Part shown: piece by piece, positions 1,595-6,293 of the stretch | Numbering within the stretch: position 1 is the first letter of the stretch | Layout of the letters: the number at the start of each line of letters is the position of its first letter | Origin: Clostridiales bacterium | Lineage (GTDB): Bacteria; Bacillota; Clostridia; Oscillospirales; UBA644 | Assembly (NCBI GenBank): GCA_016281915.1 | Contig: JAEEJO010000050.1 | Location: 1 to 64,000 of the forward strand | Direction of reading: 5' to 3' | Length of the DNA: 64,000 bases | Position numbers and translations under genes: made by a program | Notes under the pieces: model-generated | Told to the model about the DNA's origin: nothing | Seen by the model: only the letters and a program-made list of their open reading frames with translations | Database searches by the model: none

Positions 1595-2659
1595 TCATTT
1601 AGTATATTCCGCATACCACCGTGCAAAACGCCTGAGCCCTTCTTCAATGCCGATGCGCGGACGGAAGCCGTAGTCTTTTTCGAGAGCTTCAGAGTCGGCA
1701 TACGTTACGGGGACATCGCCGGGCTGCATACCGACGAGCTGTCTGTGTCCCTCAAAATCGTAGTCCGCAGGAAGGACGCCGGCGGCAACGAGCTCATTCT
1801 GAAGGACTGAAACGAAATCAAGAAGGTTTTCCGGCTGGCCGCCACCGATGTTATAAACCGCATACGGAGGAAGAGGAAGCCCGTCCTCGCCGTTCTGCTT
1901 TTCGGGAGCGCCCTGCAGCACGCGGTATATGCCCTCGACGATATCGTCAATATATGTGAAATCGCGCTTGCAGCTGCCGTAGTTGAAAATCTTTATCGTT
2001 CCGCCCTCCGTAAGGGTTTTTGCTGCGGAAAAATAGAACATATCGGGTCGTCCGGCAGGTCCGTAAACGGTAAAGAAGCGAAGACCGGTAGACGGGATAT
2101 TATAAAGCTTTGAATATGCGTGCGCAAGAAGCTCGTTGCTCTTTTTTGTTGCGGCATAGAGGCTGACGGGATTATCGACCTTGTCGTCCGTGCTGAACGG
2201 AACTTTTTTGTTTCCGCCGTATACTGAAGAGCTTGACGCATATACAAGGTGCTCGACAGGAAAGCGGCGGCACGCCTCGAGAATATTGTAAAAGCCTATA
2301 ATATTGCTTTCGATATAGACGTCAGGATGATCGATTGAATATCTCACGCCTGCCTGAGCTGCGAGATTGACGACGGCATATGGTCTGTATTTCTCAAAAA
2401 TCCCGTCAACGAGCGCTTTATCGGCAATATTGCCCTCTATGAAAACGTGTTTGGCTCCACTGCTTTTTGCCTTTTTTTCAATAAGCGAAAGGCGGTAGCG
2501 TTTGAGCGCGGGATCGTAATAGTCATTCATATTGTCGAGCGAAATAACAGTGCCGGAAGGCATTTCGTCCAGAAGACGAAGAACGAGATTTGCCCCGATA
2601 AAACCGGGAGAGCCTGTGACAAGAACGGTTTTTTCGCTGAGATCTAAACGTTTTTTCAT
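1595..2659 (-). CDS. UDP-glucuronate 4-epimerase (extended SDR)
   Basis: At 354 aa this has the length of an extended short-chain dehydrogenase/epimerase. It has the Rossmann motif TGSPGFIG near residue 15, the NDYYDPALKRYRL segment typical of UDP-glucuronate 4-epimerases, the SSSSVYG serine region and the catalytic YAATKK (YxxxK). The family interconverts UDP-GlcA and UDP-GalA in the cytoplasm using bound NAD. Its start overlaps the stop of the upstream nucleotidyltransferase by 4 nt (ATGA), with AAGGGG as ribosome binding site, so the two are translationally coupled. It is the last gene of the operon and is followed by a terminator. The exact substrate is inferred from sequence resemblance and from the UDP-glucose dehydrogenase in the same operon. 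Confidence 0.88.
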   Translation of the reverse strand: MKKRLDLSEKTVLVTGSPGFIGANLVLRLLDEMPSGTVISLDNMNDYYDPALKRYRLSLIEKKAKSSGAKHVFIEGNIADKALVDGIFEKYRPYAVVNLAAQAGVRYSIDHPDVYIESNIIGFYNILEACRRFPVEHLVYASSSSVYGGNKKVPFSTDDKVDNPVSLYAATKKSNELLAHAYSKLYNIPSTGLRFFTVYGPAGRPDMFYFSAAKTLTEGGTIKIFNYGSCKRDFTYIDDIVEGIYRVLQGAPEKQNGEDGLPLPPYAVYNIGGGQPENLLDFVSVLQNELVAAGVLPADYDFEGHRQLVGMQPGDVPVTYADSEALEKDYGFRPRIGIEEGLRRFARWYAEYTK

Positions 2660-3393
2660 TTTGTTATCCCCTTATAGTATTTGCAGACCGCCTGATAGCT
2701 TTCAAGGTTGCCTATATCGTATCTGTTGCCAGGCATTTCCATGCTGTGGACCGCGGTATGCTTGCACATCCATGAAACAAGGCTGCCCGGAGCGTCCGTT
2801 CCGCAGCCGTCCGCAATTGCATCACGGATCTTTGCGGCGTCTTCGCGTTTATAGTAATAAAACGGGGGCGTGCACCAGTGAGATCTGGGATTTTCGGGTT
2901 TTTCTTCGAGGCAGAGGAGAAGATCGTTGCTGTCTGCCTCTGCAATACCGCATTTTCTGAGCTTTTTCTCATCTTTTTCATAATATCTCATCGTGCAGGA
3001 CGTGTTTTTTGCTTTTGCATAGTTCAAAAACGACGTAAGAGAGAAATCAAGGACGTTATCGCCTGCGATAACGAGTATGTCATCGTCGATCCCGAGCTTT
3101 TCGACAGCGAAAAGCATATCGCAGACTGCGCCGAGACGCGTTTCGTTTGAAGAGGTTCCGTCGTCTAAAACAGTGATGGGGAGACGGTGAGAAGACGCCC
3201 AGTCGTTAAAATGGCCGACGAATCTGTGATTGGATATAACGATATATCCGTCAACTTCACCGGAAGACGAAATATCGTCAAGAAGCCAGTCAAGTATGGT
3301 TTTTTCGCCAACTTTCAGGAGAGGCTTGGGGAAGTTTTCGGTAAGAGGGTAAAGACGGGTGGCGTAACCCGCGGCAAGGATAAGACATTTCAT
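2656..3393 (-). CDS. Sugar-1-phosphate nucleotidyltransferase
   Basis: This 245-aa protein is a GT-A fold NTP-transferase. The N-terminus MKCLILAAGYATRLYPLTE is the nucleotide-binding signature (LAAGxxTRLxPLT), and the Lys of FPKPLLKVG follows. IAGDNVLDF supplies the Asp of the metal site. It is shorter than RmlA or GalU (about 290 aa) and closer in size to HddC- or Cps2L-like enzymes. It would join NTP and a sugar 1-phosphate. The preceding gene is a uronate-kinase-like GHMP kinase and the next an epimerase of UDP-uronates, so I infer UDP-galacturonate formation from GalA-1-P. Base and sugar specificity cannot be read from sequence. It starts 10 nt after the kinase stop with a GAGG ribosome binding site. 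Confidence 0.82.
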   Translation of the reverse strand: MKCLILAAGYATRLYPLTENFPKPLLKVGEKTILDWLLDDISSSGEVDGYIVISNHRFVGHFNDWASSHRLPITVLDDGTSSNETRLGAVCDMLFAVEKLGIDDDILVIAGDNVLDFSLTSFLNYAKAKNTSCTMRYYEKDEKKLRKCGIAEADSNDLLLCLEEKPENPRSHWCTPPFYYYKREDAAKIRDAIADGCGTDAPGSLVSWMCKHTAVHSMEMPGNRYDIGNLESYQAVCKYYKGITK

Positions 3394-3403
3394 TTTTTCG
3401 TCC

Positions 3404-4579
3404 TCATTTCTGATTTTCGATACCGTCTGCGCTTTCGCAGATATGGAAGCTGTATTTTCCTTTCATTTCGGGGAAGCACGAAAGATATTCGCGATCTACA
3501 TGTTCGGAAATGCTATCGGCTTTTGAAGGGTCTATAAGCGCCATGCAGCAGCCCTTGAAGCCCGCGCCGCTGAAACGGCCGCCGTATATACCGTCGGTAC
3601 CGCGCATGATTTCATAAAGCTTTATCTGCTCGGGAGCACCGGACTCCCAGTTATTTATGCTGCTGAGTCCAGATTCAAAGGAAAGACGGCCGTATTCTTC
3701 GATATCTCCCCTTCTCCATGCCTCCGCGCCTGCCTCTACACGGCGAAATTCCGTAAACCAGTGTTCGCAGCGTTTTGCCCACGGAACCGGCAGTTTGCTT
3801 TTATATTTCTCGAACACTTCGAAATCAACGTCTCTTGCGTTTGTCTGACCGAATTTGCCGTAGTCAAGACCTGCAAACGCTTTGAGGGCATATACTCCCG
3901 CGCGAAGTTCGTCAACGCGCATATTGTATTTTGAACCTGCAAGACTGTGTTCAAGGCCGCTGAAAAAGATCGCGATCTTATACGGTTTCATGGACGGATT
4001 GGCAGGAATAAGCTCATAAGAGTTGTCTTTGCAGTCAAGGTAGAGAAGGTGGTCTTTTTTGCTAAGGACCTCGCAGCTCTGGTCGAGCGTTCCCACGTTT
4101 ACGCCTACATAGTTTTTTTCTCCGTCAAACGCAATATCGATAAGCTGCTGCGACGTAAGGGTGATGCGGTTCACCCTGCAAAGAGCATCGAGAAACGCGA
4201 GAATGACCGCCGCGGAAGATGAAAGACCGCCTATCGGGAGACTGCCCTCGATAACTCCGCAAATGCCGTAAGACAGCTGATGTTTTTTGCTGAGCGCCCA
4301 CGTCGCGCCTCGCAGATAGTCCGCCCAGTCGCCTGTTTTTTCTCCGACGTCTTTTATGTGCCACTGAGCGCGTTTAGGAAACTGCAGGCTCTGCATTTCA
4401 ATAACTCCGTTCTGCTTCGGACGGAACGCTATATGTATGCCTTTATCGATCGCAAAACCTGTTATTTTGCCGAGATTGTGGTCGCTGTGCGCGCCGATCG
4501 GACAGATTCTGTAGGGTGAAAAAGTTACTCCGTCGGCGTCTTTGCCGTATATTTCAAAAAATCTTTCTTCACAATTCAT
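3404..4579 (-). CDS. GHMP sugar kinase, galacturonokinase-like
   Basis: At 391 aa it has galactokinase length. Near residue 22 it has SPYRICPIGAHSDHNLG, which occupies the galactokinase sugar-binding position (normally GRVNLIGEHTDYNGG). As I recall it, this form is closer to that of plant galacturonic acid 1-kinase, with PYRICP and AH.DH instead of NLIGEHTDY. The ATP-binding GLSSSAAV motif and a C-terminal GRFSGAGFKGCCMALI (GHMP motif 3) are present. The expected reaction is GalA + ATP to GalA-1-P. A galactokinase or another uronate kinase remains possible. The SD is GGGAG. The gene lies 27 nt behind the UDP-glucose dehydrogenase and 10 nt before the nucleotidyltransferase, as expected for a salvage pathway. 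Confidence 0.78.
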   Translation of the reverse strand: MNCEERFFEIYGKDADGVTFSPYRICPIGAHSDHNLGKITGFAIDKGIHIAFRPKQNGVIEMQSLQFPKRAQWHIKDVGEKTGDWADYLRGATWALSKKHQLSYGICGVIEGSLPIGGLSSSAAVILAFLDALCRVNRITLTSQQLIDIAFDGEKNYVGVNVGTLDQSCEVLSKKDHLLYLDCKDNSYELIPANPSMKPYKIAIFFSGLEHSLAGSKYNMRVDELRAGVYALKAFAGLDYGKFGQTNARDVDFEVFEKYKSKLPVPWAKRCEHWFTEFRRVEAGAEAWRRGDIEEYGRLSFESGLSSINNWESGAPEQIKLYEIMRGTDGIYGGRFSGAGFKGCCMALIDPSKADSISEHVDREYLSCFPEMKGKYSFHICESADGIENQK

Positions 4580-4606: not shown

Positions 4607-6100
4607 TCAGTCTCTGTAAAAGAGATCTCGCGTGTATACTCTTTCCCGAACGTCGTCAAGAACGGGATCGTAGCGGTTTGCGATTATGCATCCGCACATC
4701 TTTTTGAATTTCTTCAGATTGTTAACGACAACAGAGCCGAAAAACGTTGTGCCGTCTTCGAGCGTAGGTTCATAGATAACAACCGTTGCACCCTTTGCCT
4801 TTATGCGTTTCATAACGCCCTGTATCGACGACTGACGGAAATTATCGCTGCTGCTTTTCATGGTAAGACGGTAAACTCCTACGACAATGTCCTTCTGCAT
4901 GTTTTCGCGCGCTTTTGAGTAGGACTCGTTATTGCCGTAAGTGCCTGCGATCTGCATAACTCTGTCGGAAATGAAATCTTTTCTTGTTCTGTTGCTTTCA
5001 ACTATCGCCTGAATCAGGTTTTCGGGAACGTCGCGGTAATTGGCAAGGAGCTGTTTTGTGTCTTTGGGCAGGCAATATCCTCCGTAGCCGAAAGACGGGT
5101 TGTTGTAGTAGTCCCCTACGCGAGGATCGAGGCATACGCCCTTTATGATCGGCGCAGTCTCCAGATGTTTGATCTCAGCATAAGTGTCAAGCTCGTTGAA
5201 ATATGAAACACGAAGTGCAAGATAAGTGTTTACGAAAAGCTTTGTAGCCTCCGCTTCCGTTGTCCCCATAAAGAGGATCGGAACGGATGTTTTCAGAGCG
5301 CAGTTGCAAAGAAGAGATGCAAATTCCTCTGCGGCAGCGGCATTGAGCCCGTCTGTGCCGACGATTATCCTGCTTGGATAAAGATTATCGTAAAGCGCTT
5401 TTGACTCCCTTAAAAACTCCGGGCTGAATATGATATTGTTCATACCTGTTTTTTCGCGGATACGCTCGGTATATCCTACCGGAACGGTTGATTTGATAAC
5501 GATGACGGGACGGGTCTTTCTTTTTTCGGTCGCCTTTTTAATGAGCTCGAGCACTTTTTCGACCGCTGAACAGTCGAAAAAATTCTCTTTCGGGTCGTAA
5601 TTGGTGGGTGCGGCTATAACGATATAGTCCGCCTCTGAATAGGCGGCCTCGCCGTTTGTTGTTGCGCGAAGAGAAAGCCCTCTTTCGTTGTGTTCCGCCA
5701 TATATCTTTCTATATATTCGTCTCTGATGGGGCTTTGCCAGGCGTTTATCTTATCGACCTTTTCGGAAAGGATATCGACCGCGGTCACGTCGTTATGCTG
5801 TGAAAAAAGAACAGCAAGAGAGAGTCCGACGTAACCAGTGCCGGCTATGGCGATCTTCTTTCTTCCGACAACGCTCTTTTTTGCCTCATCATCGGCAGTG
5901 ACCTCTGAAATGCTGAAATCAAGGACGGAAGAGAGTGAAAGCAATTGATCGACAGACGGGACGTAATCGCCGTTTTCAAGCCGGGAAAGAACGGAACGGT
6001 TGATATTGGCTTTTTCCGACAGTTCCGTCTGCGACATTTTCATAGTTTTTCTTCTGTTCAGAACGGTCCGTGACAGAAGATCGGTAGAAAGGTGCCTCAT
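4607..6100 (-). CDS. XRE-type HTH fused to UDP-glucose 6-dehydrogenase
   Basis: The chosen start is ATG 6100 (GGAG 8 nt upstream, after the predicted TSS); the track start at 6136 has no SD. The protein is 497 aa. Residues about 8-65 form an XRE/Cro helix-turn-helix ([20 protein letters not shown], then [13 protein letters not shown]). From about residue 82 a complete nucleotide-sugar dehydrogenase follows: NAD-binding [13 protein letters not shown], central SPEFLRES, and the catalytic-Cys loop [15 protein letters not shown]. Known enzymes of this family oxidise UDP-glucose to UDP-glucuronate with two NAD. The dehydrogenase half is of normal length, so this is a true fusion rather than a misread start. 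It is the first gene of the operon. Three palindromes surround its promoter, which suggests autoregulation by the fused HTH. Confidence 0.88.
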
Positions 6101-6118: not shown

Positions 6119-6135
6119 TGTTGTTATCGGCAACA
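6119..6135. promoter_or_regulatory. Candidate operator 1, TGTTGTTATCGGCAACA
   Basis: This 17-bp palindrome lies between the predicted TSS and the UGD start codon. On the minus strand it reads TGTTGCCGATAACAACA and shares 15 of 17 positions with operator 3. Binding here would block elongation. Confidence 0.6.
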
Positions 6136-6156
6136 TTTTTTTATTTTGCAGACAAT

Positions 6157-6185
6157 ATTATAGCAGACCGTCTGAAGAAAATCAA
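6157..6185 (-). promoter_or_regulatory. Sigma-A promoter of the nucleotide-sugar operon
   Basis: On the minus strand TTGATT (6180-6185) and TATAAT (6157-6162) are 17 bp apart. The TSS is expected near 6150, giving a leader of about 50 nt. Confidence 0.8.
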
Positions 6186-6191
6186 CACTTA

Positions 6192-6202
6192 TGTTGTCAA
6201 CA
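6192..6202. promoter_or_regulatory. Abutting half-sites TGTTGTCAACA just upstream of the -35
   Basis: The same TGTTG/CAACA arms as in the 17-bp operators occur here as an 11-bp palindrome with a 1-nt centre. It may be a weak or alternative site. Confidence 0.4.
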
Positions 6203-6243
6203 AAATATGAAATTTTCATTCTAATGTCTAAAAACTCGATAAA

Positions 6244-6260
6244 TGTTACCGGCAGCAACA
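6244..6260. promoter_or_regulatory. Candidate operator 2, TGTTACCGGCAGCAACA
   Basis: This second 17-bp copy (consensus TGTTRCCGRNAGCAACA) lies about 95 bp upstream of the operon TSS. Its centre is 33 bp (about three helical turns) from operator 3. Confidence 0.6.
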
Positions 6261-6276
6261 AATAAAAGCAAATATG

Positions 6277-6293
6277 TGTTGCCGAAAGCAACA
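6277..6293. promoter_or_regulatory. Candidate operator 3, TGTTGCCGAAAGCAACA
   Basis: This is the best palindrome of the set: six perfect arm bases, TGTTGC/GCAACA, around CGAAA. It lies between the divergent promoters, nearer the 6451 (+) gene, and could affect both. Confidence 0.6.

Follow-up and report, generated by a model that had tools for sequence, protein, structure and literature searches.

The HTH-UGD operon and its promoter region

The window (the whole 64-kb stretch of DNA that was analysed) carries on its minus strand a gene (4607..6100) for a protein of 497 aa, here referred to as HTH-UGD, in which an XRE-type helix-turn-helix (HTH) domain is fused to UDP-glucose 6-dehydrogenase (UGD). 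The XRE-type domain comprises residues 1-75 (5876..6100, minus strand; Pfam HTH_3, 1.3e-11) and its AlphaFold model (pLDDT 93) has the five-helix HTH fold of the XRE / HTH_3 family, with fold-search matches to SinR, C.BclI and P22 c2. The model and the alignment place the recognition helix at residues 35-42 (RSVLSRLE), where Arg35 is near-invariant and Ser36 is the specificity residue. The UGD part consists of the NAD-binding, central and UDP-binding domains (Pfam PF03721, PF00984 and PF03720), and the invariant catalytic motifs GGYCxPKD, PEFLRE and KST are all intact; judged by its sequence, HTH-UGD of the window is a complete, catalytically intact-looking enzyme of the HasB / Klebsiella Ugd type, which would convert UDP-glucose to UDP-glucuronate by oxidation. 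The closest solved enzymes, Klebsiella pneumoniae Ugd (3phl/3plr; phmmer 4.5e-139) and the first UGDH structure (1dli/1dlj; 7.2e-131), are 53-56% identical with conserved active-site motifs and, unlike HTH-UGD, are without the N-terminal HTH. Residues 291-371 are poorly modelled in the full-length AlphaFold prediction, which was kept out of arguments on oligomer geometry.

Downstream on the same strand are, by family assignment, genes for a galactokinase-like GHMP kinase, probably a sugar or uronate kinase (3404..4579), a sugar-1-phosphate nucleotidyltransferase (2656..3393) and an NAD-dependent epimerase, probably a UDP-glucuronate 4-epimerase (1595..2659). The GHMP kinase gene adjoins HTH-UGD in other lineages too; within the short flanks available, 48 loci have an epimerase gene near HTH-UGD, and genes for the kinase and for the nucleotidyltransferase occur there in approximately 25 loci each. 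Based on these families the operon may plausibly supply UDP-uronic acids by two routes, from UDP-glucose and by salvage, and such a supply would be a natural target for feedback by UGD itself.

An earlier note on this DNA had proposed three 17-bp palindromes with a common consensus around the HTH-UGD promoter, together with a compact palindrome at 6192, and all of these are present. The 17-mers are TGTTGTTATCGGCAACA at 6119-6135 (copy 1), TGTTACCGGCAGCAACA at 6244-6260 (copy 2) and TGTTGCCGAAAGCAACA at 6277-6293 (copy 3), and they have the common consensus TGTTRCCGNNARCAACA once copy 1 is reverse-complemented. A sigma-A promoter for the operon (TTGATT-N17-TATAAT) is predicted from the sequence at 6157..6185 on the minus strand, with the -35 TTGATT at 6185-6180, a 17-bp spacer and the -10 TATAAT at 6162-6157. 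This prediction puts the transcription start site (TSS) at ~6150 and therefore copy 1 just downstream of it and copies 2 and 3 upstream, in agreement with the earlier placement of one copy past the TSS and two upstream 33 bp apart. Specifically, copy 1 reads TGTTGCCGATAACAACA on the coding (minus) strand and would be a proximal operator spanning ~+15 to +31 relative to the predicted TSS, while copies 2 and 3, on the plus strand, would be distal operators centred at ~-102 and ~-135 and lie 33 bp from one another. The start codon is likely the ATG at 6100-6098, which is preceded by GGAG, rather than the ATG at 6136 (at copy 1); hence the coding sequence of the XRE domain would begin ~20 bp from copy 1, as had also been claimed. 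In many orthologs, proximal sites equivalent to copy 1 are found at -27 to -50 relative to the ATG. The compact palindrome, TGTTGTCAACA (6192..6202, no strand assigned), is situated just upstream of the -35 and its TTGACAACA is present at the same position in 5/5 congeneric loci; as a shortened operator it was rejected, its half-sites being 6 bp closer and its spacing unfit for a 17-bp operator.

Conservation and genomic specificity of the palindromes

A search of the window with the loose pattern TGTTGN7CAACA, allowing one mismatch, gave three matches, a number that by itself is unremarkable since 1.5 are expected by shuffling; unlike this raw count, the clustering of the three copies at one promoter is remarkable. 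Over the 2.18-Mb genome to which the window belongs, the consensus with zero mismatches occurs at exactly three places, all at the HTH-UGD promoter, and the next-best matches are four one-mismatch places, all elsewhere.

Site conservation was computed directly from relatives, which were divided by tblastn into 115 distinct HTH-UGD proteins (108 of which passed a strict UGD motif test), 114 having enough upstream DNA, and a control set of 100 distinct upstream regions from genes for UGD that lacks the HTH ("plain UGD"); relatives found in a phylum-wide search were almost all plain UGDs. The first 60 HTH-UGD loci served to fix the half-site consensus TG[TA][TC][GA][CT][TC] (17-bp spacing); in them it gave 71 sites in 42 loci against 0.8 expected, with none in 28 plain UGD regions. 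For the full set, 148 sites were detected in 85 of the 114 HTH-UGD upstream regions (1.9 expected from dinucleotide shuffles) compared to none in the 100 plain UGD regions (1.2 expected with the same consensus and shuffling), so that the absence from orthologous operons that the earlier note had named as evidence against its proposal was not observed. Among the loci added after the consensus was fixed, 43 of 54 have sites. A consensus-free count of 17-bp segments in which seven or more of the 8 dyad pairs match was in agreement, with 86 vs 27 expected for HTH-UGD, and 20 vs 18.5 for plain UGD at the same dyad threshold.

The fixed consensus detected no site at 24 HTH-UGD loci with Arg35; some of these show weaker palindromes, and in others the gene may sit at some distance from the promoter of its operon. 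Some close relatives (L023 and L025) lack the proximal copy. We also considered that the sites might serve the divergently oriented gene for a 289-aa protein; this was rejected because that gene was found in five congeneric loci only, and the sites thus track HTH-UGD and not the 289-aa gene.

Genomic specificity, likewise computed directly, is high. In the 16 genomes searched, TGTTGCYNNNRGCAACA with zero mismatches occurs at 12 places in nine genomes, all at HTH-UGD promoters, and the abundance at unrelated sites that had been raised as a counter-indication was therefore not seen; the one-mismatch matches that were inspected fall within open reading frames, except those at cpsB. These latter make the genus of the window the exception to a one-gene regulon: two congeners (G001 and G007) have a copy upstream of a gene for a cpsB-like phosphatase. 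In G001 this copy (L185, G001:C94, 450-466) is identical to TGTTGCCGATAACAACA and is located 369 bp ahead of the conserved DFHSH motif, and the cpsB-like gene is followed by Wzz-like and CpsD-like genes; the G007 copy is that of L188/L194 (G007:C5). In both congeners the copy is nearly identical to the operator and ~370 bp ahead of the gene for the cpsB-like capsule phosphatase. A weaker copy is found beside the cpsB promoter in two further congeners (G005 and G006), and no copy was found upstream of the cpsB-like gene in the genome of the window itself. The capsule genes are thus a plausible second HTH-UGD target in congeners, though not in the genome of the window. No HTH-UGD match was found in G002, G004 and G009 of the same genus (the G002 and G009 assemblies being incomplete), nor any cpsB match in G004 and, within its incomplete assembly, G009; HTH-UGD and the capsule genes seem to have been gained or lost together in the genus.

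Covariation of the recognition helix and the palindromes

Both the need for an intact HTH and the covariation between helix and palindrome were computed directly. Sites are present at none of the five loci whose HTH-UGD lacks Arg35 compared to 85 of 109 with Arg35 (p = 8e-4). Residue 36, the second position of the modelled recognition helix, goes with the half-site: TGTTGC for Ser, TGTTAT for Ala and TGTCAT for Gly/Thr. Specifically, G at half-site position 5 is found in 40/50 Ser36 loci vs 1/20 Ala36 loci (p = 5e-9), and C at position 4 in 7/8 Gly36 loci vs 14/70 others (p = 3e-4). On a tree built from the UGD part alone residue 36 has changed at least 22 times, and phylogenetic GLS upholds both associations (G5 with Ser36, p = 2.7e-4; C4 with Gly/Thr36, p = 6.5e-9), which also hold when early and late loci are analysed separately. 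As an example, the tree neighbours L240 (Ser36) and L231 (Gly36) have TGTTGTTTTAAGCAACA and TGTCGTTTTAAGCGACA, respectively. By our own alignment we take Arg35 and Ser36 to correspond to Gln28 and Gln29 of the 434 repressor. Base contacts are likewise assigned to the first residues of the recognition helix in the 933W repressor (PMC3317979).

Because the sites require an intact HTH to be present and change their letters with the helix, there is strong support for the palindromes being operators to which the fused XRE domain binds, as had been suggested. A palindrome alone names no binder, and these genomes hold many other XRE proteins, so a separate stand-alone regulator (another XRE, a LacI-type protein or similar) might occupy the sites while the fused HTH has another role; we regard this as improbable, given that related genomes have no sites upstream of plain UGD genes, that sites vanish where the fused recognition helix is degraded, and that, with phylogeny corrected for, they change along with residue 36 of the fused HTH. 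That covariation, with a residue of a protein as partner, also speaks against RNA hairpins or terminators of a 5' leader, to which the transcribed and palindromic proximal copy might otherwise belong. Moreover, two of the three copies are upstream of the promoter and outside the operon transcript, and no Rfam match came near its gathering score; the RNA reading was rejected and is very improbable. Chance clustering of the TGTTG/CAACA word in A+T-rich intergenic DNA would be in line with the unexceptional number of loose matches in the window, but the excess of sites at homologous promoters (148 vs 1.9) and their absence from the controls led us to reject it, and its probability is close to nil.

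Site architecture and proposed regulation

Positions relative to the promoter could be assigned for 46 of the 85 site-bearing loci, i.e. those with a good predicted promoter. Among these, sites are both upstream and downstream in 16, and seven have two upstream and one downstream; in all, at least 23 loci have sites on both sides of the predicted promoter, which is the flanking layout of a loop-forming repressor. In the remaining loci with a predicted promoter the sites are on one side only (upstream only in 11) or overlap the promoter. The commonest position is the -40 to -21 bin (44 sites), just downstream of the promoter. Distal and proximal sites are for the most part 96-163 bp apart (mode 130-132), and a second distal site is present exactly 33 bp from the first in nine loci, the window included, and at 32-36 bp in 12.

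From these positions HTH-UGD likely represses its own operon. A role as activator, or a dual one, in which RNA polymerase is recruited by the distal pair, would suit the 11 loci with upstream sites only and the distal copies, which in the genus are more regular than the proximal one; against this, the commonest position is where bound protein would block transcription, and the distal centres at ~-102 and ~-135 are remote for activation of the classical class I or class II type. We consider that HTH-UGD acts mainly in this way to be unlikely, and repression to be the better reading. Looping between operators about 130 bp apart is possible: helical phasing at 10.5 bp is weak (R = 0.32, p about 0.009) and the loci are not independent, so that looping is something we infer. 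Of the looping or cooperative autorepression by the XRE domain that was suggested at the outset, XRE binding thus stands on helix-operator covariation and autorepression follows naturally from the site positions, while looping and cooperativity rest on the architecture and the weak phasing.

Taken together, the data suggest, with a probability of approximately 0.87, that the palindromes are operators through which HTH-UGD acts as a self-regulating trigger enzyme, with likely repression, possible looping and probable ligand dependence. In this scheme the N-terminal XRE domain would grip the palindromes, making UDP-glucose 6-dehydrogenase its own transcription factor, and a dimer, joined via the UGD core and/or the HTH, would sit on each 17-bp palindrome through helix 35-42. 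Bound at copy 1 just past the TSS, the protein would block transcription; its binding to the two distal copies, which are 33 bp from each other and ~130 bp from copy 1, would strengthen repression, possibly through a bridge across the promoter. Binding is probably tied to the state of the UGD domain with respect to substrate, product or cofactor, and ligand control of this kind would provide feedback on the supply of UDP-glucuronate/galacturonate.

Among known systems, the trigger enzymes PutA and BirA resemble HTH-UGD in combining a catalytic enzyme with a DNA-binding domain and in having sites at the promoter of their own operon, whereas both the enzyme class (UDP-glucose 6-dehydrogenase) and the DNA-binding type (XRE) of HTH-UGD are different. 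The DNA-binding domain is a ribbon-helix-helix in PutA and a winged helix in BirA. With regard to the trigger enzymes (a term of Commichau and Stulke 2015, as cited in PMC6978683), HTH-UGD is a candidate in which both domains are intact by sequence and the operators conserved. In the gal operon, 16-bp palindromic GalR operators 113 bp apart flank the promoter and form a loop, for which the stand-alone LacI-family protein GalR needs HU (PMC4693257). The two systems are alike in that palindromic operators (16 vs 17 bp) flank the promoter of a nucleotide-sugar operon at spacings (113 bp vs a mode of about 130 bp) of roughly a dozen helical turns; they differ in that HTH-UGD is the operon's own enzyme and in that its looping is suggested by site layout. 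Nor does HTH-UGD belong to the LacI/GalR family, its HTH being XRE-type and fused to UGD. By analogy, the HTH-UGD system would work as trigger enzymes do, with its operators arranged much as those of gal. The fold and sequence family of its HTH are common with SinR (3qq6, 3zkc), the restriction controller proteins C.BclI (2b5a) and C.Esp1396I (3clc), P22 c2 (2r1j, 3jxb) and 434 Cro (2cro). These XRE autoregulators also have short palindromic operators, although the operator sequence is different and HTH-UGD is joined to a metabolic enzyme. Restriction controller proteins also autoregulate via paired operators. The fold search with the HTH model gave, in addition, a match to HppE, an epoxidase of solved structure whose N-terminal domain is likewise XRE-like, and by this analogy an enzyme-borne HTH alone is no proof of regulation.

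We found no paper on an HTH-UGD regulator in the open-access literature, and our data point to a widespread, apparently undescribed enzyme class that would read its own promoter in the capsule-precursor metabolism of gut and rumen bacteria. At even odds, HTH-UGD would represent a so far undescribed family of nucleotide-sugar dehydrogenases that regulate themselves, found in Firmicutes and other bacteria of the gut and rumen. In this reading the enzyme would loop its own promoter according to the state of UDP-sugars or NAD and, in certain species, would control the capsule (cpsB-wzz-cpsD) operon as well, its operator having been re-specified many times by the helix (Ser36, Ala36, Gly/Thr36) as a natural specificity code. 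The more than 80 regulator-operator pairs, with their changes at the specificity residue (at least 22), constitute a natural data set on how XRE helix and operator change together, and a single protein with a single DNA fragment would suffice for a direct test of autorepression.

Three further observations concern individual HTH-UGD genes. The gene at L063 (3229 onward) encodes a degraded recognition helix (IDPADLTRLE) and has no operator, while close relatives have both; helix and operator were apparently lost together. That of [Clostridium] polysaccharolyticum (L086, 6001-7473) has a stop at codon 172 in the assembly and is either a pseudogene or the result of a sequencing error. Finally, two genomes, G1460 and G1434, have two HTH-UGD paralogs each (L239, L241, L267 and L268), the G1460 pair being Gly36 vs Ser36, and such pairs offer a natural setting in which to see whether the operators of paralogs are insulated.
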